A stretch of 64,000 bases of DNA. It comes from Paracyclopina nana. Lineage: Eukaryota; Arthropoda; Copepoda; Cyclopoida; Cyclopettidae. The DNA lies in NCBI GenBank assembly GCA_019096065.1, contig JAGUCH010000008.1, positions 4,841,001 to 4,905,000 on the forward strand, written 5' to 3'. Below the pieces are notes generated by a model. It saw only the letters and a program-made list of their open reading frames with translations, had not been told where the DNA came from and made no database searches. The translations under genes and the position numbers were made by a program. Shown piece after piece: positions 3,001-62,285 of this stretch (position 1 is the first letter of the stretch; each line of letters begins with the position of its first letter).

Positions 3001-5094
3001 CCTTTTCATTACTAAAGCAAAGAAAGTGAAAGGCTTTCCTGAAAGTTCCTCAGTTATTGTGAATATTGTGGCCGGACATGTGTCTTAAAATATTGCCTTT
3101 CTCCTGAATACGTGTATATACTAGTGCACAGACAACTAGAGTAATTGCGTTCAGTCACGATCATTAGAGGTCATCAATCATCGAACCTTAAAAAGCCTAG
3201 ATAACTATATACTAGTTCATCCCCACTGGAAAAATCAATATACAAAAGAAGGGTCAATGCCCATAATCACAAAATCGAACACCGTTTATGACACCTCAAA
3301 CAAGAGACCTCATTAAAATCACCAAGAGCCAGTGCATAACACATTAAAGGGCTAATGTCAGCGAAATTTGCCATGCTAGTCAGCTATGAATAATGTAAAT
3401 GACGGCAATTCACCTTTGCAATATGAACGTACTAATACAAAATATGAGAATATTCCGAGCAAAGGGAGTTGACTAACATTTAGGCATTGATTACGCGGAA
3501 TTCAATTGCTTTGCTATTGAAAAATTAATTCACTTACTACAGAATATTTTAATTTATCATTTATAATTTTTCATGTTTTTCCAGTTTTCTTACCTCAATT
3601 ATAATGGTAACTTCAGTATCCACATAATCGAGAGTTCCACCTCCGACTTCTTCAGCTCGAATTCTCAAAATAAAAGCTCCATTCGAACTCAACTCACTTT
3701 CACGATCAAGCTTGGATTGAGTGTACACAATGCCAGACTCTGGTGTGATTCCAAACAAATCAATTGGCCCTTGAACGATGCTATAAGTTATCTGATTATT
3801 GATGCCACGATCTCCATCCACTGCTCGCACTTTCAGAACCTAAATTAAAAAAGACACATGAAATCATCCATGTAGACGACAACTTTCACTAAACGGTGCT
3901 AAGTAACAGATGAAATAAGTTCTACTTTCCTTAAAGCCCACTTAATCATCAAATAATAAACCTGAAAACAGCCGTATCATTCTACGTGCTTGTTCAAAAG
4001 TTTGCGCAATATTTTACTATTTTCTGACCAAGTCGAGAAATTTAATGTAATGAAGGAATTTTCTTTGTCTGGAAAATTTTCTGCCTAACAAAGAGAAATA
4101 AAGGACCCGTTTTTTTCGGTAGAAACTGCAGCTAAAAGAAGGATCCAAGCTTCTGGTAATTTCCAAGGTCCAATTGCGTGAACGAAAATTTGGCGTGAAA
4201 TCTAGATTGTTGCACTAGTTAGGAAAAATGTCTCACCTCAGTGAATGTGGGAACATCTTCGGCAATACGAGACACAGACGGAACACTGACGAATTCCGGC
4301 CGCTTATCCTCAATGTCCTGCACCTTGATCAAAATGGCAGTGACCGCAGAATTGATTTTGCCAAAATTGGCACGATCCTTGGCAATGATTCGTAGTTGGT
4401 ACAAGCTTTGCTTTTCAAAGTCCAGGTCCCCTAGCAGAGTAAGGACAGCTGCTCCATTCACAGTGGTCACACTAAACAGGTTAGGATCATCGTCGTCAGT
4501 CTCCAGGTCATAAATCACTTGGCCAAAAATGCCAGAGTCCTTGTCATCTGCTATGAGAGTGGCCACAGTCAGGGGGGTAGCAGAATGCTCGCGAATCTGA
4601 ATAGTGGGGGAATGTGGTCTGAAAATGGGGGCATTATCGTTGACGTCCTCCACAATGATGAGCAAGGACTGAGTCATATAATTGCCCTGGCCCAACCGGT
4701 TGTCAGTGAGGGTAAGCACCAATTGGTGCTCTTTTTCCACCTCTGCATCCAAGTATCTTTTCAGCACAATGGAAGCCTCGTTGTTGCTCTCGGTGATCAC
4801 TTCCACAAGGCTGTCATCCCCTTTGGAGATCACGCCAAAGGTGAGAGGATCCCCGTCAGGATCAAACCCTTTGGCATGGTAAATGACAGTGCCTGGGGGC
4901 GTGTCTGCGCCCTCCTTGAGGGGTATCACCACGCCCCCATTTTGGTTTTCGTCCAGAAGGAATTTTGGCGGACTGTTGCCACGTGACCCGCATGGCAACA
5001 ACAGCAGCAGCAGAAATGTAAACAAACAGCTGACTCTGCTTAACCGGATTTTTTCTGTTAAAGTATGGCACTGATTTGTCGAGCAGCACTTCAT
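1..5094 (-). CDS. Large cadherin, 5' portion (CDH23/Cad87A-like), partial
   Basis: This is the N-terminal part of a calcium-dependent adhesion protein. Exons (minus strand): 5094-4237, 3839-3594, 2587-2402 and 2209 to beyond position 1; all joins are GT-AG and in phase. The start is the ATG at 5094; an in-frame TTG at 5115 was rejected. A signal peptide (Leu-rich run about residues 25-37, then CGSRG) is followed by at least ten cadherin repeats. Each ends in a DVNDNxPxF-type linker (for example DVNDNAPIF, DVNDNPPEF, LDENDNAPKF), and LDRE and DxDSG calcium motifs are present. The transmembrane and cytoplasmic parts are outside the window. EC1 lacks the Trp of classical cadherins. Many EC repeats and the FDPDGDPLTFGV-like EC1 suggest the CDH23/Cad87A group, but the subfamily is inferred. 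The exon running off the left edge encodes more than 730 residues without an intron. Confidence 0.9.
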
Positions 5095-49400: not shown

Positions 49401-52400
49401 GTAAATCATGGCTGAAACTTGATAATTTCACTCTAGCATTCCGATTTCCCCCGAACTCATGGTCAAGTTGTGTGTGTGTGTGTGTGTGTGTGTACCTAGA
49501 CCTCTCGGGGACTCAGGGGCAAAAAATGGGGGCAAAAAACCCTTTTGCAGCCTGCTTGCCACAAAGGAAATAAAATAATGAGAAGTGAGTAAAAAACCTC
49601 TTGAGCTCAAACACTTTCACACCTCATGCTGAGCTACAAGTCAACGGAATTCAAGACCCCCACCAAACAAATCAAGGCTATTTGAGATCACTTTGAGAGC
49701 TTTAAAAAAAACATCAAAAAAGCCGAAGTACAGCTGCTTCATATTTTGTAAAAAAGACGAAGTTAAGCATTGTTCTAAATTTTATAAATTTGCTCCTTTT
49801 TTTCTGATTAAAAATCTCACTTTAACGCTTCTAAAATTTCACTAAAACAAAATCCTTATTTCACGCTTCAAGATATCAATCATGTTCCATACATCAACTC
49901 TAATGCATATCAATTATGTTTCAGATGATGTGAACGCTTTGTATGGAACTTTATTGAAAGAGTACATCTTTAATTTTTTCCACGAAAAATTCTCCAAGAA
50001 AAATATCACATCTTAATGCAGCTAGACTTAATATCTGATCAAACTATAGAGGCAATAAAAGGACTATTGAATCAAACATGAATGTTTCATTGTCAATTTT
50101 ATTGATCATCTTTCATTTACTCTTTATCACAAGTCATTGTTAATTTTACAACATTTACACTAAGCACATAGCAAAGACATAGTTAGGGCAAGTATGACAT
50201 CATCAGTTATAACTGCCTTGCCTATAACATCATTAGCGTCAACCTTTGACAAGAAAGCACTTCTTCCTGCTATGCGATAAACTCCTACAGCATTGAAATT
50301 TAAAGAATCATATTGATGATCAATGTATGGCATCGTTAGAATTTCTTTTGCCATGTAAAATCCAACTTCCACTCTATCAATTTTGAAAAATTTTTCATCT
50401 TTCGTGAAGACCAAGTTGTTGACATGAAGTGAAGTTTCTTTTTCTGCATCCACTTTGATGATTTTCTTGCATGAATGGTTCAATTTTGACTTCTTCAACG
50501 CTTTAGTCATAATTTGCTTTCCAACATTTGGTGTTCCAGTGAAGAAATACTTATTCATCTTAGCGTACCACGCTTCATATGGCTCTGCAGATATTTCATG
50601 TAGAGGAATAATTTTTCGAATCGTTTGAAGGTGGAAAAATACATGTAGATTGTAGTTGCAATAAATTTTTCCTAAGTTTTTTTCATGCAACTTATAGTAG
50701 CGTTGATGTATGGCATGTGCATCAATCTCCTGATCATACTTTTTGTACAAAAAGTCTGGCATGAATGCAAAACGAACCAAGTAGGCAAAAAGGACCCATA
50801 CTTGGCGTAAAGAGTGAAAAAATCGATCCTTGTACAATGCTTCAGATATGATGTACATCCCACACCCAATCAAGCTCTTGTATTCGCTTCCCTTGAAATG
50901 GATTAAATTTTCAACCAAAGATCTTGCACCTCGTTGAAACTCTGATGGCATCTTAACTTTAGTCCACGCTTTATCTATCCTTTCAGCCAAAGTCACACCA
51001 AGGGCAGTCATAGTTTTCCGCTTCTTTCCAATACCAACAAAAGCCCTCATTAACGTTTTGCACATGCCAAGGAATAGCAGGTGAAATGGGTCTGGAAGTA
51101 CTTGCTTCACTATGTTGAAATTTTCAATTTTCAAGAGTGGACTTGTTCCCCAAATACCAAATGAATCTTCTGGCTCACTTCCTTCTTCAATGCTTTGGCA
51201 AATTTTTCTATGTTCTTCGTCAGTCCTAGCTTTAGACATCATGGTGTCTTTAAGGAAGACATGCGTACGTTCCAACATCTCACCTTTAGCATAGCAAAGT
51301 TCGCAGGCAAAATCAGCATTATGCTGCATGGCACATCTCAGTTTTGCCCTTATTGGAGCATCTCCAATTACAAATCTTATTGTGAAGTTGTCTTTGGCTG
51401 CTTCTTCAATTAAACGCTTCAGTAAAGACTCTGCATTGTCCTCTGCATTACTCTTGTATAGATGACAAAGAATTGGCGAGACTTCTTCACAATTAAGAAA
51501 CCTTACGCATACAAGCGTTAACTTGATCTTTGTCGATTTTCCATAGGGAACTCCATCGACATGTATGTCAATTGTTTTTGACAGCATGAACTCTTCACCC
51601 TTCATGCTTATATGACACGCTTCTATGAAAGAGTGCAGTTCATGCAATGATACATGACAAAATGCACTAATAAGCACATAGTTCGGATCAGTGTCATAAA
51701 CATTGCGTTTGTGAAAGTCAGACTCACTAACTTCAATCCTGTCATTCCCAGCTTCAGATTGGTATATCCGCTTAAAGCGTAGAGGTGGCATATCCTCATG
51801 AAATCTTCTCTTCGCTGTGATATAGCTCGGTAATTGAAGATCAGCCTCAACTGATACAAAGTTCCATATTGTTGTGAGTGCTGATTCTGTCAATTCCACA
51901 GTTGACATGACCTTAAAGAATCTGTCAATGAAGTTGTCTGTGTATCCTCGATCAAAGTTCACTTCATTCTTCAACTCCATCATTCGTTCGCGAGACATTA
52001 AACCACTGCGATTGTTGACTACAACCTTATGAGAAACAGCAATTTAGAAGATGTAACACTACACATTTACTCTTTGATTTTCACCATTTCCGGATGTCCA
52101 ATGTCGACTTCTTCAAATTTGAATAATTCATTGTTTCCAGAACTATTCAACTCTTTGCTATCGACTACAGCTGATGATCCAGATGATGATAAGTAGCTTG
52201 GGCGAGGACGTCTGTACTGGCTATTGCGCTAAAAAGTGACAATATAAATTCTTTTAATCTTTATTCAACGCTTTACATTCATGTTGAATATAAATCAGGC
52301 ATAGGTTAAATATCTTTTTCTTCAAATTAGTTATCTAGAAGCCTAAGTTAACTGTTCAAAAAAGTACCGAATTCTTGTCTTCATCTTTTTCTTTGCCAAG

Positions 52401-55400
52401 TTGCTTCTTCTTCTTTCCTGCAATGCAAGCAGGTTGTGCCTCGGGTTGCTCATCAGAGTCCGACCCAACTCCATCGTTCAACTCTTCAGTATTGAGATTT
52501 ACGTTTCTGATCGTGCCGATTACTTCATGGACATTTTGGTCATGATCTAAATTTGTAAAGAATATCATTGATTCACTCTTTCATTTAGTATGTAAATTGC
52601 TTACTTTGATCATCCCCTCTGCAACATGGTTCACGCTCCCCCTCAATTTCCTCGGTAGAAGTGTAACAATATTCACTGTCATTGAACTCATTTCCGTTAT
52701 TGTCCAACGCTAGATGCCAATTGTCATCTTTGTCATCGTAGTTCCAACGAGCGTATAGATCAAATGGCTCATTTTCATCATCAGTGGCTTTCTTTGAGGT
52801 TGACGGCTTGTTAAGTTCATCAGAATCACGTGTTGGAGTTGATTGATGAGGATTCATAACTTCTTCTTCTTCCATCTCACGCTTAATCAAATAGCTCACG
52901 ATGTCCTCCTCGTCACTGTCAGCAATTGCATCACAGACACGCTTTGAAGGTGGTTCCTCATTATTGTCACTATTGTGGATCGCAAGTTCACGCTTCAGAG
53001 AGCTTTTAGGTTTTTTGTTGGGCTGACTGTCAGACATTTTCAGCGTTCAAGCTTTGGAAGCGGTTTCTGAAATAGAAAGAAAATGTAGCCATAGTTCCAA
53101 AGGAACATTATAAATTGATATGCTCAATTTAATTTTGACATTCAAATATAATTATGAAATAATCCTTGTTCATCTTCTCATTTAGAACTTCAAATTTCAG
53201 AAGTTCACGCTTCTTCATTCCAAACACATTTGACATGAAGACATCCGCAGGGCAACTCTCGATCAACTCTGATTTTTGGCAACACAAGAGACAACAAGGC
53301 ATCAATGACAACATCTCTATTGTCGCTGCCATTATCATCATCTTCATCTGTCCACTCTTCATCATCATCCTTCCCCTCGTCATCATCATTTCTATCCACA
53401 TTTTCCGAATCATTTGCAGGCGGTGAAAATGAAAACTCTTCATTTTGCACATCCGCAATAAGTGGTGCACCTGATTTCAAAACTAAAATATATTTATGTT
53501 ATCAAAAAATATGAACTACACGCTATGTTCTCATACCTTTGTAGCACTTGCATTCATCTTCATGGCAGTAACTTGTGTCGACTTTTGCAAATTCGCAGTT
53601 TTTGGTAACTAGCATAGATGTACGCTCAGCTTCATCTCTCTCTGGATCGCAATAAACCTCGCTCATTTGCAGATCCTCCAACATGCACGAATTGTCTGAG
53701 TCGTTGTTGATGTCTTCATTGATGTGAAGCGTTGAGTTAGAGGAATCTTCCAAACCTAGTCCATCATCAGAAGAATCAAATTGATCCGTATCTGCCTCAT
53801 GTCCGTTGAATTGCACTTCGTCCTGACCATAGTCAATTATCTCAGGTTCACGCCTTAGTTCTTCATCCTCGTCAACAGCATGTTCCATAATTTTTGAACT
53901 AAAAACAAAAATATTAATAATTAATACATAATTTAAAAAAATACAAACAATGATTTGTAAACTTACATGAAGTTGTTATACATCTTTTTGCAATTAATGA
54001 ATGCAATAGATGAGTGTTACTCTTCGATTAGCAAGTTTGTTGTTCACAACTCAAGTTCGTGAAGTAGACTGATGTGTGATATCAAGGCTGCACATACTCA
54101 GCTCTCAGTAATTAAGCCTGCCTTACAGCTAGAGTTAACTGTTGCTGTGACGTCATCGCTAGTTGTCGCACATGCCTTCAGTCAGTAAGAGCTGAGACAC
54201 CACTTTGAAAGGACGTGCCGGTACATGTCAACTGCTGCTGTGCTGTAGTACCAACCACAGTTGCCAGCTAACCTGCACTCTTTCATTCTCAGTACTGAGC
54301 TAGCTCAGCTACTGCTGTAGCAGTCAGTCTGCCGGCGGATGCCAAGGTGGCAACATGTCACGATCCCAGCTGACTTCAGCTAGTCCTAGAGAAGAAAGAA
54401 TTTATGATTCAAGTCTGATTTTTTTTTGGACTGAACCCAAGAATCCACTTCAGCTGTTGACTAATGACTTCAGCCTCATCCCAGGTCAAACAATAGCTGA
54501 CATCTTTAATGACGTCGACATCACATCAAAGTTGTCCAAAGAGGAGCGACTGAAGAAGTATTATGTTCTTATGAACAGTAAACTTAAGCCTATCTCGATC
54601 TTTTTGCGTGTACAACAAGGTAATTTTTTAAAGTGAAGAGTTCAACTATGATAAAATTTTAAAAATTCTAGGTGCAAGCCTTGAGCAAACTGACGAGATC
54701 ATCGTGAAGTTCAATTCGGCTATGCGAACAGCCAAAGATGTTGTAACGAGGGAAAAGTTGTATGAACCCCTAGTGGACAAATATGACTGTCGCCTGATGC
54801 GTGGTTGCACGCTTGGAGAAAGAAATGAACAAGGCAAAATCCAAGTGCGAAGGTGGACGAGTGGCATGTTCCTACGCTCAAATACTCTTCAGACTATAGC
54901 CAGGACAGGATCCGAGACAGATAAGTCTGACGCCACTGGTTTACGCTCCCAAAATGTGGCTCTATTTTCTGTTAAGTCAAAGCCCTCACCAAAGACGAGT
55001 CCCAAGGAGTCACCTGCCAAGAAGGTATATTGAAATCCTACATTTACGCTTCAGTTAATGACTGCTATATTTTCAGCAAAAAATTGACGAGTTTTTATCA
55101 AGACCTGAAAGCTCCTACTTCCACAGTAGCTGCCATGATTTCTCCGTGCCATCCACTAGTGGGAAGAGTAGCAGCACGCTATTTCCAAACATCGTCACCG
55201 CAGAATACACTGCGGACCACAGGAAGTCTGCTGAAAAGTTTTTTGAAAAATCATCCGACGACTCTTCAACGCCTACATGGAGGAGTGGAGAATCGACATC
55301 AGACAATATTTTGAAGGAGCTGAAAGAAATCAAAGAGTGGATGAAGACTAACAACACTGCAACAATTCAAATGAATAAGGAGCTATCAGAGAAGGTTGCT

Positions 55401-58400
55401 CAACGTGACACGCTCATCAAACAGATTGGTGCTTCAGTTGTGAGTCTCAGCACAAACGTATTTGACTTTTCAAAACAACTGGATGAATATGAAGCGTCAA
55501 AAAAGGTAATATTTGTTATTCTTTTAAGAGTGAAGTTTTAATTTTTATCTATTTGTAGAAAAATGAGTCTTCAATTCCGGAAGATCTCAAAATCGTGGTC
55601 AAGGAGTTGCAAACAGTGACGGTTGGATTGAAGATGCTACATGCTGAGAAAGCGTCAAAGTTGGCTAAAACTATCACAATGGCTTTGGCCCCACTCAAGT
55701 TTCACTCTTTGAACCGTTTTGTTGATGTCTATTTGAGTTGTGTTGATGTTTTGGAGCTACTGCTTGAGAATCTGAAACCACGACTTCACGCTATTGATGT
55801 AAATGAGGAGATGTATTACAACATCATCAAACTCGTCCTTGAAGAACTCTTCGACAAGTGTGCTCTAGCACACTTAGTCCGTGGATCAGAGGAAGGGTAA
55901 TTATTTTATTTTTATAGCGTGTATGTATGATATTTCAATGAAATTTTTTAGTACTGGCAACACCAGCTGGTTTAAACGAAAATTGCCAAGAGGAGTAATG
56001 ACACTTCTGATGACGCATGTGATGCCATACTATAGAAGTTACAAAAAAGATGTCTCCCCTGCAAATTGGGCAATTGCAGACACGCCTCAACTAATGAGCC
56101 GCGCTTTTGTCAATTTTTTCCACAATCAGCGAAATTCATGGCTCACGCTAATAAGAAAAAATGTGGAGACAGATGAGCAAGCATATGTGTTCTGTTATGC
56201 ACAAGACAAAATGTTGTATGAACAAAACAAGGTATCAAAGCTTTACGCTTCAATATATTCGAATAGTTATAGACATTTCCATTTCAGCACATGATTCCAC
56301 AAAGTCTGCAACCAGAATCGTTTGAGGACTATGTTGCAAACAGCAACAAAGAGCTGCTGAAGTCAAAGCGTGGAGAACATCCATCAGATCCAGAATTTGG
56401 GATGATCGAGCAAGCAAAGGTCAACTTTTATGACACAAGACATGTCATCAAGTATTGTCATGAATTGGCATCACTTAGGGAGAAAGATCGCATGCCACGC
56501 TTCATTGATGTGGAAGAATTGCCCGAGGTAAGTAAAGCGTGGATGATTAATTTTTGTTCTGAAATATTTTATATTTTAATAATATGTCTGATTTTAGATT
56601 AAGGAGTTCAATGAAGCAAGATACTTGGAGCCAAACCGAAGCGTTGAAGAAATTCTTGCATCTATCCCTAGTGTGGATGAAAAGGTGACAAGTAATTGGA
56701 AGGACTATGTCATTGAAGACAGCTGCGAAGTTTCAATCAAAACTTTGCTTGGGAAGAAGAGTGGAGGTAGGAAGAGACGGACAAGCAAGAAAGAGAAACC
56801 TGAAAAAAGAACAGTTCTGCGCCAAACTAATATTCTCTCAACTGCACTCTTTGGAAAGAAAAAAAGGACGCCTAAGAAGACTTCTAAGGATGAAGAAGAT
56901 GATATTCAAGAAGTTCACTCTGATGATCCAGAGTTTGAATCTGGCAGCAGTGATGATGACTTTAAGAAGCCAGGAACATCAGGCGTGAAGAAGATCACTG
57001 AAGAAAAGAAGTTGCTTCGAAAGTCTGAATCAAGGTCGCCATCATTTGATCACTCTTCAGACGATGAAATTGAGGAAATTCCTCAAAGCTTAACCCAGAA
57101 GAGTGGGCAAGATGATCAAGAATTGCCAAGGAATATTGAGCAGACAAACATCAAACGTTCACTCTTCATTGAACGAGCAGAAAAAGAGGAAGATGCGAAG
57201 AGACATTGCTCAACTGGACTCTCCGATGAAAATCCAAATGACCAAGAGTTGGAGACTGATGGTGACCGAAATGTTCGTAGGTCAAAGAGAAACATCAACA
57301 AACCTCTTCCTCCTCTTCTACCTCATGACACAGAGGTAAGCTTAAATGTCATATTCACGCTTTACTTGCTATATTAAGTTATATTTTAGGATCTTCATGT
57401 AGGTTGCAATGATGAATCCAATGATAAGGTTGAAGCGCTTGACAGACGAGCAAGTTCAGCTTCACAATTGCTAGTTGACGATGTTTCGTTTTCTCAACTC
57501 ACCTCATTCACGCCTCCATACAGTCCAAATTGCCTAAGTCATGAAAACACAGGTAAGAAAAGTAAACTTAAGCTTTTTGAATGAATTTAATTTATAGTTT
57601 CATTTTCATAGCGTTGCCTTCAAAGGAAAATATGGCTCTTCTCAATAACTTTGAGAGTATAATGACGCCACCAAACAGCTCTTCCATTGCACCGGGCAGC
57701 GTGAACCATGAACAGCAGAGTGAAACTCCAGGCATTTCAAACTTAGTCAGGATGGACCCAATTATGGCTCAAAGGAATGACACTGAGGAAGAAGAAGAGT
57801 CTGCCCATTCTCAGGTACATGAAGTATTTTTTGAAAAAATCATAAGTTAACGCTTTATTTATTAGTTTGCATGTGATGTAGACGAGTTAATTTGCGCTTG
57901 TCAATGTCAAGACGGATTGCTAGACTTTATAAACAGTCTTTGAGACTGTTAGAAAGCAATAATGAAATTAGAAGAAATTAATATTGAATTTAGAAGAAAA
58001 TAGTCAAGATTCACTCCTAATGATTGATTGCATTGTAATTTCAGAAAATTTGAAGTAACATAAAGAAACGTTAATATGAAAAAAAGAATGACAAGAAAAG
58101 GTTGATGTGCACGCTTTGGACATGACAGGGAAGACAAGAAGAAAAGAAGAAAATACGATATGATATCAACAAACACATGAATGTTTAAAGAAAATCTCTA
58201 GTGTACTCCTTATGTATATTACCATTACTGCAATTGTAATTAGCTTGCAGATAAAGAGTAAAATATAGAATTACCTCAATTCAATCTTTATTTTACTTTA
58301 GGTTAAGTGTACGCTACTTGATTCAGTAATATTAAAAAAAGCGATTACATGTGAGAGAACTTTGTTCTTTCACATGTAATCGCTTTTTTTTTGGCTCAAC

Positions 58401-61400
58401 AAGTTTCAATAAAGCTCAAGTATAGACTAAATCAACGCTACATTATTTGAGTACAAAAACCATTGATTCACGCCTAAAATTTATAATAGAAAATACCTCA
58501 ACAACGCCAACTTCAAATTGAGCAATTATCAAATGTTTATGCTACACATTTTTTAGAGAGTGAAATTAATAAATTACTTGCAGTTAAGACGATGTCTACT
58601 CTAAAAAATCTGAATAAGATCAAGTACAGAATATTGCGAAAAATTGCAGTCACACGAAGAGTGAAATTAATATAATATATTAATATATTTCTTAAATCAA
58701 CTGTTCAAGACACTGCAACGAGTGCATGAGATCTTTTTACAAAAGATATTGTTTGGTGGGGACTTTATCACTGTTGATTTTAGCATAAATTACAAGCCTC
58801 AAAGGTGTGTGTGTGTGATTGCAGAAATAAATGGGCATCCATATCCATTGTGGAAAGGGATAGTTTTCCAGCCACGTGGGCTGATCGTGACCCCAAAAAG
58901 CACTATTTTAATTCTAATGCTCAGCAACACGGATAGTATATAACCAGCATATGGTTATTTTTGCACACAAAATGCAGAGCTGGTGTTTAAAGAGGAATAA
59001 ACTAGGGCAAAATAGTCAGAGTACCCGGCATTTTTCTTTATGTCCTTCCCTAATGTTGTCATTTTCATTCATGGCCAGCCGAGGCCATTATTTTCACGGA
59101 CAAAGAAAATGCTGCCTCAACTCACTGCAGAAGCTCTTGAGAGCAAGGAACTTACCTAAATTGCCTCTGGCCAAAAGCCCGGCGCAAAATATGAAGAGAT
59201 CTCCGAAGCAATGATACTATGCTTATAGTAGAGAAACCTTGTTTTATGGGCCAAGCAATTTTTAGGCATGTCAAAAAGGCTTATCTAGCAAAAAAGGGTC
59301 TACGGAATGCGATAGACATTCCATCACGACGGACAGAATGGATTGCTCAAAAACTAGCTAGAAATGAGAAAATTTGCAGATTATTTTCAAATAATCATTA
59401 TGAGTGGTTTTCAAAATTCACTCAGTCACATACTTGAAATTCAAGGTGACACATTTTACCTTAAAAAAGCTGATAAATCATCTTTAAAAAAAGGACTCTC
59501 ATCTTCCTAGGATGAGTAAAGTAGGTCTACAATATGCATGCAATAATTGCACTTTTACCAAAGATTCATTAAAAAAGAGTCTAGACGACGAGATAAAAAC
59601 CGAGTGCAAATACCAAAAAAAGTACGGTACTAATTTTACCACCGAATTGGTCAACTTTGTGGTTAACGAAGACACCTGTTAAATGTAATTTAAGACTGCA
59701 ATTCACGTTTGAAAAACGAGCTTCGTAATTTCTTTCATACCATATCTACAATACAAGTGTGGTACAACTATATGCTACTTTAATAAGCGTTACAAACTTT
59801 TTCCTATGGCATTCAATCTAATGAACATTAAGTTGTTCGTAGGAGACCTCAACGCGCGGATGATCAAACGATAAACTATACAAGCTTTCGTGCTTGAGTT
59901 GCTGCACTAGATTTTTTACCCGAGCATGGCCCAAAGGCAAGTATCAATCATACGGATACGACTCTAAATAGCACATGTGAGCCGAATTTTTTATTCGAAG
60001 GATAATTGTGACACATCCGCGTGTGCCAGCCAGCAGCGAGCGCATTCTTTTCTCGTGAGCAATTGCCCACTGCCGAAAAATGCTTCTGTTGCTAGTTATG
60101 AAAAAATCGATCAAGACACAGAGGAATTCACCCAATTATTTGGAGAAAACTGAAATATCTTGTCATACTAGTATCTGTATAGTTGGGCTTTTAATTGAAA
60201 GCCTAAAGGTTACATGAAGAATGTTCTTTAAGCCAATTTCGATTTAGTGAGTTTCGTTTTGGTGGTATTCATAGAATCCAAACTCATTTATACACCTCAA
60301 GGTCAAGTTGCGAGTAACAATGAAAAAGTAGAAAACTCATCTCACTCCTAAGAAAACTTTGTCACCACTAATTTTTCACGCTCCTTCCAAGAATGTGTTA
60401 CTATACAAGACTATATAGAGAGTACGCAGTAGCTATATGGTAGGTATACTAGTATAGCAATTCAATTGAAAAATCCATTCAATAGTGTATTCGTAAAAGT
60501 GGCCTGGAATCCGCCGCATGGCTTTTATTCGATTGGCAAAAAAAAAAAATGTTGCGTGCATGAGGAAACAGGAAATATTGTGCTAAGAAAAGAAGAAGTT
60601 GTGTGATCATGTGCTGAAAACTTTCACCCTTTTTTCATTCATATTCTAAGATGGCAGGAGCAGCAGCATTCAACCATTAAATTCCCAACAATAATCCTTC
60701 ATTCATTCTTTTGTGCTTGCAGGTCTTCTTCGCCACTTTGGCAATATTTGCCACCACAAAATGCTCTGCCTTTTTCTTTGGAAATACCAGGCAAGTGAGG
60801 CAAAGGCCGCATTACCACCACCAGCCAAGGCCTGTCAGCTACCACGAAAAGCCTCCGATTGTTGTGGAAGATGGGTATGGCTCACCAGCAGCCCCTGTAA
60901 TTGTAGATGATGGCTATGGCTCCCCAGCAGCCCCAGTATTAGGCGCATATGGAGCACCCGTTCAAGAAGACAGCTATGGATCACCTTCAGCACCCGTTTA
61001 TCACAGTCCTGCACCTTCTATTGCACCTGCAAGTAGCTATGGCTCCCCTGTGTCTGCTCCAGTTTATTCAGCTCAGCCAGTTTCGACAGGATACAATTCA
61101 GCTCATGCTGAGCCAGATACTTATGGTTCCCCTGTAGCTGCTCCTGTTTACCATAATGGCAACCAAGGTCATCATCATGTTGAGCAAGACAGTTATGGCT
61201 CTCCAGCTGCTCCAGTCCAATCTGTGGCCTATGGTCCTCCTACATACCAACAAGACAGCTATGGAACTCCTCAAGCTCCAATTGAGCATAATAGCAATCA
61301 TGCGCAGGGTAGCTACAAAGCTCCGCCTAAAGAAGAAGACAGCTATGGCGCACCTGCTGCCCCCGTTCTGTCCACCTCCTATGCACCTACAAAGCCAGTG

Positions 61401-62285
61401 TACACTGCACCGGCCACACCTCAATACAAGCCTGTCTATAGACCCCCACGATTGGCAACAAAGTACAACAAGCCAAAAAGGCAGGTTGCCCATTATGATA
61501 GCCTTTACAGCTGGATGATGCCCTCTTTCAAAATGCCCATCTTTAACATGCTGATGCCTTCTTTCATCAGAAGGCCACGATTCATTCCTTCACCTCCTTC
61601 AGTGAAGCATAATAAGCCTCAGCCTTCAGTGGTCAAAACCTATGGCACGAAGGGCAAAGACCAAAGGCTTGAATACAGTGGGTGGCAACCCATTGAAAAT
61701 GCCTACTCCCCTCCTGTACCAGAATATTACTCAGAAGAGCCAGAGCCCGTAATTATCACCATTGACAATGCTCATGAGCACTCAAAACAAGTCAGTTATA
61801 AGGCTGCCCCTAGTTCAGCCTATGATGCTCCACCCGAGCCCATCACTGCCAGCCCCAATGTCTATAGAGAGCCTCAAGTTGTCTATGGATCTGCACCAAT
61901 TGAGCAGCCACTATTTGACTATGCCCCAGTTCAAGATTTGACCCAACTGGCAGATGCAGCTGCTGCAGACATTGATTACATTCCACATACCCATGCTCCA
62001 GGAAAATACCAAGCCACCCACCAAGCTGAACATTTGGCACATGAGGTCCTATCAGGATCTGTGTATGTGCAGCAAACTGAGGTTGAGCAAAATCAGCGGC
62101 CAGAAGAAGAGCTGATAGATGAAGATGATGAAGATCTCTACTACATTTTCTATGATGATGGCAAAAGTGACCAACAACAAAAGTCTAGTCCTGCTAAGTC
62201 AAGTACATCCCACTTTAACCTCAGTGTCAATGGCCAGACACATGGATTCAGCCACAATTTTGATCACAGTAGGGCCAAAAAGTAG
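46437..62285 (+). CDS. Secreted Tyr/Pro-rich repeat protein, probable cuticle or matrix structural protein
   Basis: Exon 2 (60723-62285) encodes nearly the whole protein; it begins with the rest of a signal peptide (VFFATLAIFATTKCSA) after a good acceptor, but has no start codon. The proposed exon 1 is 46437-46448 (ATG AAG CTA ATG, then GTGAGT donor), giving MKLM + VFF...CSA: 524 aa in phase. Residues about 50-225 hold nine or so repeats of the type [DS]-S/G-YGSPAAPV; SYG[AS]P recalls resilin-like elastic repeats with cross-linkable Tyr. A KPKRQ dibasic site, a Met/Phe/Pro segment (MMPSFKMPIFNMLMPSF) and an acidic C-terminal part (EEELIDEDDEDLYYIFYDD) follow. No Rebers-Riddiford chitin-binding consensus is seen. 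The 14.3-kb intron carries the transposon. Exon 2 is firm (0.9); the exon 1 link is inference (about 0.6). Confidence 0.7.
48812..48880. promoter_or_regulatory. Divergent pair of CTCF-like motifs
   Basis: GTAGCGCCATCTATA (minus-strand reading AGATGGCGC) at 48812-48826 and GTAGAGGGCGCTT (plus) at 48868-48880 both match the AG[AG][TG]GGCGC core, in opposite orientation about 45 nt apart. Motif evidence only. Confidence 0.3.
49469..49493. repeat. (TG)12 microsatellite
   Basis: Uninterrupted TG dinucleotide tract of about 25 nt inside the intron, just left of the transposon. Confidence 0.9.
50160..53037 (-). CDS. Transposase of the animal Tnp2-like (DAPAR/GTSPL) family
   Basis: Exons: 53037-52605, 52546-52368, 52228-52085, 52025-50160; 873 aa, all phases consistent. 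The N-terminal 250 residues are charged and disordered with a basic start (KKPKSSLKREL) and KKKKQ/RRPRP patches. The catalytic-like core lies in the last exon: HVDG (Asp at about 409), IGDAPIRAKLRCAMQHN (Asp at about 474) followed by CELC at 493-496, GTSPLLK, a DPFHLLFLGMCKTLM block (about 564-578), NYNLHVFFHL, and EPYEAWYAKM (Glu at about 733-736). These correspond in order to the DAPARA, GTSPL, LDYMHLVCLGVMRK, YNVHxLLHL and PFENYLGKLK blocks of related animal proteins. A DDE-type active site is inferred. Introns hold few ACGCTT motifs, exons several. Confidence 0.85.
53205..53888 (-). CDS. Short acidic protein encoded in the transposon
   Basis: Exons 53888-53537 and 53482-53205 join in phase (splitting a Val codon) to give 209 aa. 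It starts MEHAVDEDEELRREPEI and is very rich in Asp/Glu, with a run near DDDEGKDDDEEWTDEDDD. The C-terminal part has clustered Cys (ELPCGCLHVKC), and an earlier CHEDECKCYK occurs at the exon junction. It lies upstream of the transposase on the same strand. The frame stops 167 nt before the transposase ATG, and an AG acceptor lies at about 53071-53070, so these exons could alternatively be part of a spliced transposase 5' leader. No family was recognised. Confidence 0.5.
53889..54354. promoter_or_regulatory. Divergent internal promoter of the transposon
   Basis: About 470 nt between the minus-strand acidic/transposase unit and the plus-strand 1028-aa gene. It is more GC-rich than the rest of the element, with many AGCT/CAGCTA repeats and a full TGACGTCA palindrome at 54148-54155. 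No clear TATA box. Confidence 0.5.
54148..54155. promoter_or_regulatory. CRE/ATF palindrome TGACGTCA
   Basis: Exact consensus CRE within the element's divergent promoter region. It could couple element transcription to CREB/ATF signalling. Sequence match only. Confidence 0.45.
54355..57943 (+). CDS. Unrecognised 1028-aa transposon-encoded protein
   Basis: Ten exons: 54355-54619, 54672-55024, 55077-55505, 55559-55896, 55952-56231, 56288-56527, 56598-57335, 57390-57552, 57612-57814, 57866-57943; every junction is GT-AG and in phase. The N-terminus (about 1-110) is globular, starting MSRSQLTSASPREERI. Then come a Ser/Lys/Pro linker, a helical segment that may be coiled-coil (LKELKEIKEWMKTNN...LSEKVAQRDTLIKQI), and a conserved-looking middle domain (about 360-560: FVDVYLSCVDVLELL, FKRKLPRGVMTLLMTHVMPYYR, NWAIADTPQLMSRAFVNFFH). 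A basic patch follows (GGRKRRTSKKEK, GKKKRTPKK), then acidic/Ser clusters, and a C-terminal Cys cluster (LICACQCQDG). No zinc finger or known DNA-binding fold was recognised. By position it could be the TnpA-like partner of the transposase; this is inference. Confidence 0.8.
58334..58390. repeat. 27-bp perfect-stem hairpin with a 3-nt loop
   Basis: Arms 58334-58360 and 58364-58390 pair over 27 positions (26 Watson-Crick plus one G-T) around a TTT loop. The core is GCGATTACATGTGA with its complement, flanked by A7 and T7 runs. It lies 391 nt beyond the stop of the 1028-aa gene, near the right end of the transposon. Confidence 0.95.
58557..58671. repeat. 14-bp direct repeat near the right end of the transposon
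   Basis: AGAGTGAAATTAAT occurs at 58557-58570 and again at 58658-58671, 101 nt apart. It may be a subterminal repeat of the transposon or mark its right border. Confidence 0.7.
58690..60720. other. Right part of the large intron
   Basis: About 2 kb without recognised coding sequence; frames at 58722-59437 have no family similarity. AT-rich, ending in the pyrimidine-containing acceptor of cuticle exon 2 at 60721-60722. Confidence 0.45.

Follow-up and report, generated by a model that had tools for sequence, protein, structure and literature searches.

In plant CACTA elements, a conserved transposase is accompanied by a divergent second protein and by family-specific short repeats in the subterminal regions, and the CACTA element Tgmt is flanked by a 3-bp target duplication (PMC2613891, in the parts available). 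In the VANDAL transposons of Arabidopsis, VANC21 recognizes the dense YAGTATTAY words of VANDAL21 and lifts the silencing of that family, and VANC6 uses a different word (PMC5735166 and PMC10398659, in excerpt). Here we describe a DNA transposon of the copepod Paracyclopina nana that carries two genes and is studded with the short word ACGCTT. It lies in a 64,000-nucleotide stretch of contig JAGUCH010000008.1 (positions 4,841,001 to 4,905,000; hereafter the window, to which unprefixed coordinates refer). The evidence base is the sequence of this one genome, searched as 92 Mb in 10 contigs.

ACGCTT is enriched along a two-gene transposon

The word forms an array of 28 sites between 49825 and 58116, found by counting. 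Twenty lie on the plus strand (49825, 49863, 49934, 50498, 50570, 50966, 51414, 51617, 52268, 52879, 52939, 52990, 53207, 54809, 55046, 56245, 56497, 57357, 57850 and 58111) and eight on the minus strand (51513, 51775, 53727, 55492, 55650, 56366, 56535 and 56639). A first-pass annotation had counted by eye about 20 ACGCTT and about eight AAGCGT at 49.8–58.1 kb, and both figures proved exact for starts within 49824–58115; the remainder of the window has eight of each. The enrichment it proposed was borne out: the expected number in that interval is 2.7 under a first-order Markov model and 2.6 from the window flanks, and 500 dinucleotide shuffles gave a mean of 2.59 and a maximum of 9, compared with 27 observed (the 28th site runs past the interval limit at 58115). 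No hexamer of the interval is more enriched than ACGCTT, and among pentamers ACGCT leads, with 46 occurrences against 7.8 expected. The whole element holds 48 ACGCT and 32 copies of the variant ACTCTT.

The same excess is present in other copies of the family in this genome, which we call C4, C5a, C5b and C2, the window copy being W. Between the inverted ends, 28 sites were found against 3.0 expected in W, an approximately tenfold excess along its entire length, 34 against 3.0 in C5a, 38 against 3.9 in C5b and 17 against 2.5 in C2. Site density inside the element is 3.1 per kb in W, 2.8 in C4, 3.8 in C5a, 4.2 in C5b and 1.9 in C2. Around the four other copies it falls to 0.34, 0.33, 0.67 and 0.16 per kb; the window flanks have 0.29 per kb, and 29 distantly related loci, totalling 138,951 bp, have 0.39. 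For segments that take in some flank, the log10 p of ACGCTT is −17.5 (W), −23.5 (C5a), −23.8 (C5b) and −8.9 (C2); the best value for any hexamer in five 9.8-kb control blocks from the window is −5.9. No tandem array with ACGCTT as its repeat unit was found in the element. The excess of ACGCTT is thus confined to the element.

The transposon measures 9,104 bp (49658–58761), with edges taken from the comparison with C4 and from the inverted ends; the first-pass annotation had drawn it too short. Its 12-bp inverted ends are CCCCACCAAACA on the left (49658–49669, plus strand; exact in W, C4, C5a and C5b, imperfect in C2) and TGTTTGGTGGGG on the right (58750–58761, minus strand; exact in W, C4, C5a and C2, with two mismatches in C5b). 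An AC target-site duplication flanks it at 49656–49657 and 58762–58763. The duplication is 2 bp in four of five copies (AC in W, CA in C4, AC in C5a and AA in C5b). The CACTA label of the first-pass annotation did not hold: the ends read CCCCACCAAACA and do not begin CACTA, the duplication is 2 bp rather than 3 bp, and none of 18 transposases gave a tnp2 Pfam match at E values up to 0.1, which leaves a remote relation conceivable.

C4 is 99.5% identical to W, lacks the window stretch 49804–52787 and has its own duplication. The copies C5a, C5b and C2 are full-length, and their main transposase exon is open throughout, with 71%, 63% and 59% protein identity to W, respectively. DNA identity to W along the element is 60%, 53% and 54%, in alignments that take in some flank. 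A genome search with one core exon of the second gene of W returned only these five copies plus three weak matches. Genome-wide, the end sequence CCCCACCAAACA is present 79 times, compared with five for a reversed control, and close inverted pairs of it at C5:5931105-5931231 and C9:5854487-5854828 resemble very short derivatives.

The two genes are divergently arranged, and their structures rest on exon-level reading frames kept between copies. The transposase gene, on the minus strand, has a main exon of 627 amino acids (50163–52043) and upstream coding segments at 52615–53013, 53208–53492 and 53535–53888 (span 52615–53888, borders approximate) with similar frames in other copies. Gene 2, on the plus strand (54355–57940), has approximately ten exons, with frames similar in C5a, C5b and C2, separated by nine very short introns of approximately 50–68 nt (54620–57865). 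Domain searches with the transposase and gene 2 gave no match, or matches only below curated cut-offs, and Pfam and PDB searches gave no match naming a transposase superfamily.

The bases around the core are constrained in the four diverged copies, as the first-pass annotation had proposed. T is found at position −3 in 23 of 28 sites in W, 25 of 36 in C5a (two of these sites lie beyond its right end), 24 of 37 in C5b and 10 of 17 in C2, and C or T at position +6 in 25 of 28, 26 of 34, 34 of 38 and 15 of 17, respectively. Its wording that most sites read TTCACGCTTCA, TTAACGCTTTA or close variants was too strong, because these exact words were counted only twice and once. W and C5a have C or A at position −1 and C5b has C or T, with no clear preference in C2. 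ACTCTT is raised in W (32 against 8.1 expected) and C5a (19 against 6.9) and hardly so in C5b (11 against 8.1) and C2 (9 against 8.1); AAGCTT shows an excess in C5b alone (13 against 6.1). At matching places in gene 2 introns, one copy may have ACGCT and another ACTCTT. Since variant counts and intron words differ by copy in this way, close relatives share a core and differ in its side forms.

Selection on the word reaches synonymous codon positions

Coding segments hold 17 of the 28 sites in W. We compared coding sites with synonymous-codon shuffles that keep both protein and codon usage (1,000 per copy); the coding borders of C5a, C5b and C2 are approximate, with a stop in six segments where the alignment overran the exon. 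Observed and expected counts are 17 and 3.5 in W, 18 and 2.5 in C5a, and 18 and 3.8 in C5b, an approximately fivefold enrichment that none of the 1,000 shuffles reached in any of the three. The enrichment thus survives a codon-matched background, a check that the first-pass annotation had itself named, in three of four copies. In the main transposase exon of W, seven sites stand against 1.17 expected from the codon shuffles, and ACGCTT ranks first of 1,016 words in W, first of 972 in C5a and first of 1,032 in C5b.

The first-pass annotation had held that positions drifting freely between copies would contradict its reading; positions do turn over, with 11 of 27 sites identical at the aligned place between W and C5a, but they do not drift freely, as 2.3 would be expected from all hexamers, so that approximately five times as many sites are kept as hexamers in general. 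The corresponding figures are 6 of 27 (1.3 expected) for W and C5b, 2 of 27 (1.3) for W and C2, 7 of 27 (1.5) for C5a and C2, and 5 of 33 (2.1) for C5b and C2. Most sites therefore turn over and density stays, with sites kept above the level of other DNA.

Silent sites between the copies are near saturation: at four-fold degenerate sites, W is 41% identical to C5a, where the random level is 30%, and 34% identical to C5b, where it is 29%. At places with an unchanged covering peptide, the word nevertheless survives in six of eight cases between W and C5a and five of seven between W and C5b, when other words are kept at 25% and 22% (p = 0.005 and 0.007), and in four of six between C5a and C5b (p = 0.014). 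We conclude that, in three of the four copies, selection reaches synonymous codon positions of both genes. The proposal that the array runs through the whole element, coding exons included, with selection at synonymous sites and unlike the subterminal repeats of CACTA elements, is upheld by the codon nulls and the kept peptides.

ACGCT occurs in gene 2 introns 2, 4, 5, 6, 7 and 9 of W, exactly the list given by the first-pass annotation, and ACTCTT in introns 1 and 3; intron 8 has neither. One or the other word is present in eight of the nine introns in W, eight in C5a, seven in C5b and four in C2, in both orientations (intron spans outside W are approximate and take in some exon). Shuffled W introns contained a site in 0.42 of nine on average and in at most four (5,000 trials). 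The combined spacing of ACGCT and ACTCTT in W is more even than random (coefficient of variation 0.69 against 0.98, 0 of 2,000 trials); spacing as even arises by chance in 0.7% of trials for C5a, and in 20% for C5b and 13% for C2, where evenness is unclear. Together, the four copies have 57 coding sites, which fall in all three frames, on both strands and in many peptides. A recurring peptide as the cause is ruled out by the frames and strands, and a splice signal by the two orientations within introns. Within 500 bp of either end, density is 3.25 per kb, compared with 3.27 further in (four copies). The use of both strands and all frames, the presence of sites in most introns and the lack of crowding at the ends indicate that selection acts on DNA.

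Words and second genes in distant families

A genome search with the transposase gave 70 scored matches from 236 candidates, 66 of them outside the window family and 27–33% identical to it. No internal stop was found in 69 of the 70; L037 has one. We analysed approximately 4.7 kb of 26 distant loci and approximately 9.8 kb of three (L037, L033 and L057) that were picked for showing signals. In a blind test, the best two hexamers of the flanks were evaluated in the transposase frame by codon shuffles at p below 0.01. Four of 30 loci passed: L028, L029 and L030, which belong to the window family, and L037.

The three families examined at greater length have dense words of their own. L037 has 17 GACTTTC against 2.0 expected, in 10 of 13 bins, and 16 GGCTTTC against 2.2; L057 has 26 ACTTAT against 4.7 and 16 CCTTAT against 4.0; and L033 has 13 AACTCGTT against 0.4. 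Codon shuffles of the transposase frame gave 7 ACTTTC against 1.85 in L037 (p = 0.001). For words picked after seeing the data, they gave 6 ACTCGTT against 0.93 in L033 and 9 CCTTAT against 2.9 in L057 (0 of 2,000 shuffles each); ACTTAT in L057 gave p = 0.10. Three of the six L033 frame sites stand at 90-bp steps in or beside a protein-coding tandem repeat; with this repeat cut out, four ACTCGTT remain against 0.46 expected (0 of 2,000 shuffles).

Like W, each of the three has a divergent second gene, whose protein aligns to W gene 2 in two blocks with invariant residues (best BLAST E values 6e-7, 3e-5 and 1e-4). Since words differ between families, and the fully examined families have a homologous, fast-diverging gene 2, the simplest reading is that the gene 2 protein binds the word of its own family. 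At L045 (~70–1000), an adjoining 171-bp repeat with CCTAAC-type telomere-like words is the source of the strong k-mers of that locus; those of L043 stem from one side of its transposase frame.

A candidate reader of the array and its rivals

Among the functions put forward by the first-pass annotation, a binding array for a protein of the element fits best; we made no observation in favour of a packaging signal. Our preferred explanation, put forward tentatively and with not quite an even chance of being correct, is that an element-encoded protein, most likely that of gene 2, recognizes the array, coats the element and acts against silencing in the manner of VANC. The array would be a dense set of binding sites built on ACGCTT, most of them having a T three bases ahead of this core and a C or T following it, and with ACTCTT also serving in the two closest copies; the predicted sites are distributed evenly along the coding exons, introns and ends. 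Selection would hold their density, including at silent codon positions, with single sites arising and vanishing by point mutation. A sequence-specific protein would read them on double-stranded DNA, and if it is the divergent gene 2 protein, each family would recognize its own copies. Chromatin of the coated element would be kept open against host silencing, as VANC does for VANDAL transposons in Arabidopsis. From this pattern we infer all three parts: binding by a protein, the identity of that protein, and the anti-silencing purpose.

A wider claim is more doubtful, though by no means far-fetched: a two-gene superfamily outside plants may have independently evolved self-recognition, in which at least some families have their own password, written along the entire element, silent codons and nearly every intron included, and read by a fast-diverging second protein that keeps its own copies, and little else, unsilenced. 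If an element protein does read the word, VANC would have an equivalent outside plants, and sequence-specific chromatin regulators that recognize different DNA words could be drawn from a single genome. Escape of a DNA transposon from silencing outside plants would then be directly testable, because word and candidate reader share one 9-kb element. Bacterial DNA uptake sequences likewise are short self-identifying words found in coding as well as non-coding DNA and on either strand; what they mark for uptake is a whole genome, whereas here the word marks one transposon family within a host genome.

VANDAL21 and VANDAL6, as described in excerpts of PMC5735166 and PMC10398659, resemble the present element in being DNA transposons with an extra gene besides the transposase and dense family-identifying words, in the use of other words by related families (here L033, L037 and L057), and in that density rather than a single site marks the element. 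They differ in that their words spread by repeat formation and their anti-silencing activity has been demonstrated, whereas for the present array such a function is predicted. In profile searches limited to Pfam, none of the 18 transposases matched Mutator and the gene 2 blocks gave no VANC-like match. The array may work like VANC targets but, given its coding sites, two orientations and lack of tandem repeats of the word, probably lies outside the VANC system. In the part of the open-licence PMC literature covered, we came across no account of selection acting on a single short DNA word throughout transposon coding sequence, and titles and abstract openings there name no animal counterpart.

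Several observations weigh against an anti-silencing coat formed by the gene 2 protein. In the accessible accounts, VANDAL words are non-coding, tandem and mostly in one orientation; here 17 of 28 are coding, both strands are used and the word forms no tandem array. The blind test was failed by L031, which is copy C2, and by 25 of 26 distant loci; a coding-deep array in every member of the superfamily is thus not borne out, as one of 26 distant loci passed. Copy C2 departs from its relatives in other respects as well. Its coding segments have four ACGCTT against 2.35 expected, a count reached in 207 of 1,000 shuffles; the word ranks 116th of 930 in its transposase exon; and at unchanged peptides no extra conservation was found toward C2 from W (one of four), C5a (one of three) or C5b (one of seven). 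In the same exon, the core ACGCT occurs 8 times against 2.49 (0 of 1,000 shuffles), and the top word is AACGCT (5 against 0.56). The full word is kept mainly in the non-coding DNA of C2, with 13 sites in 2,970 bp.

Taken singly, the coding count of C2 would suit an array without function, produced by composition, codon usage, tandem duplication or the shared descent of the copies. We consider this explanation barely credible for the family: it is contradicted by the dinucleotide and codon shuffles and by the words kept at unchanged peptides despite near-saturated silent sites, and many sites are unshared between copies of equal density. The shuffles and the repeat check rule out composition, codon usage and tandem duplication as artefacts.

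Another point against the coat is a strand bias: within transcription units the word lies antisense 64 times and sense 32 times, a 2:1 ratio (p = 0.0014). Seen from the transcript, AAGCGT is twice as frequent as ACGCTT, which, together with a site in nearly every gene 2 intron of W, would be expected of an RNA-level signal for splicing, export, small RNAs or an RNA-binding protein. Such a signal is improbable given that the introns and exons of the two genes contain the word in either orientation and that sites also lie at the ends, outside the genes.

The domain searches also found no recognizable DNA-binding domain in gene 2, a further difficulty for the coat. No such domain would be required if a host transcription or chromatin factor read the sites and the element exploited it for germ-line expression or insulation. 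In favour of a host reader, TTCACGCTTCA occurs 72 times genome-wide, compared with 31 for the reversed control, and six of the 72 are in family copies, which again counts against an element-specific reader. On the other side, the wider word TTMACGCTTYA is no general feature of the genome, because it occurs 212 times against 268 for its reversed control; distant families of the same genome use other words, and side forms vary even among close copies. A general host word is therefore rejected only in part, and we regard a host reader as rather unlikely. Three TTMACGCTTYA matches cluster in 3.4 kb (C2:10820626-10823990), a region absent from the hits listed for the transposase and gene 2; this could be a short non-autonomous copy.

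The strongest rival, which we consider unlikely but worth serious thought, is an accessory array bound by the gene 2 protein or the transposase that aids excision, end pairing or protection of excised DNA, like TNPA of En/Spm. The layout agrees with it: a conserved transposase, a divergent second protein and family-specific short repeats are common to this element and to plant CACTA/En-Spm elements (PMC2613891, in the parts available). The internally deleted C4 has moved and retains 17 sites, and at L043 (~4234–4734) GTCCCACC repeats are crowded on one side of the transposase frame, resembling subterminal repeats. Plant elements, as far as the same source goes, have subterminal repeats, CACTA ends and 3-bp duplications, unlike the element-wide sites, CCCCACCAAACA ends and 2-bp duplications found here. 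The ends of our element are no more crowded than its interior, and sites also occupy coding exons and tiny introns. As the sites do not cluster terminally, a role in end cleavage would be a weaker reason for them than coating of the body.

Two further features were noted in the window. In the right part of the element, 58334–58390 is a near-perfect 27-bp inverted repeat (96% complementary) with a 3-bp loop; it may be a late nested insertion, because C5a, C5b and C2 lack its core word. Outside the element, a long open frame at 60681–62285 contains many YGSPAAPV repeats and possibly encodes a cuticle-type host protein.

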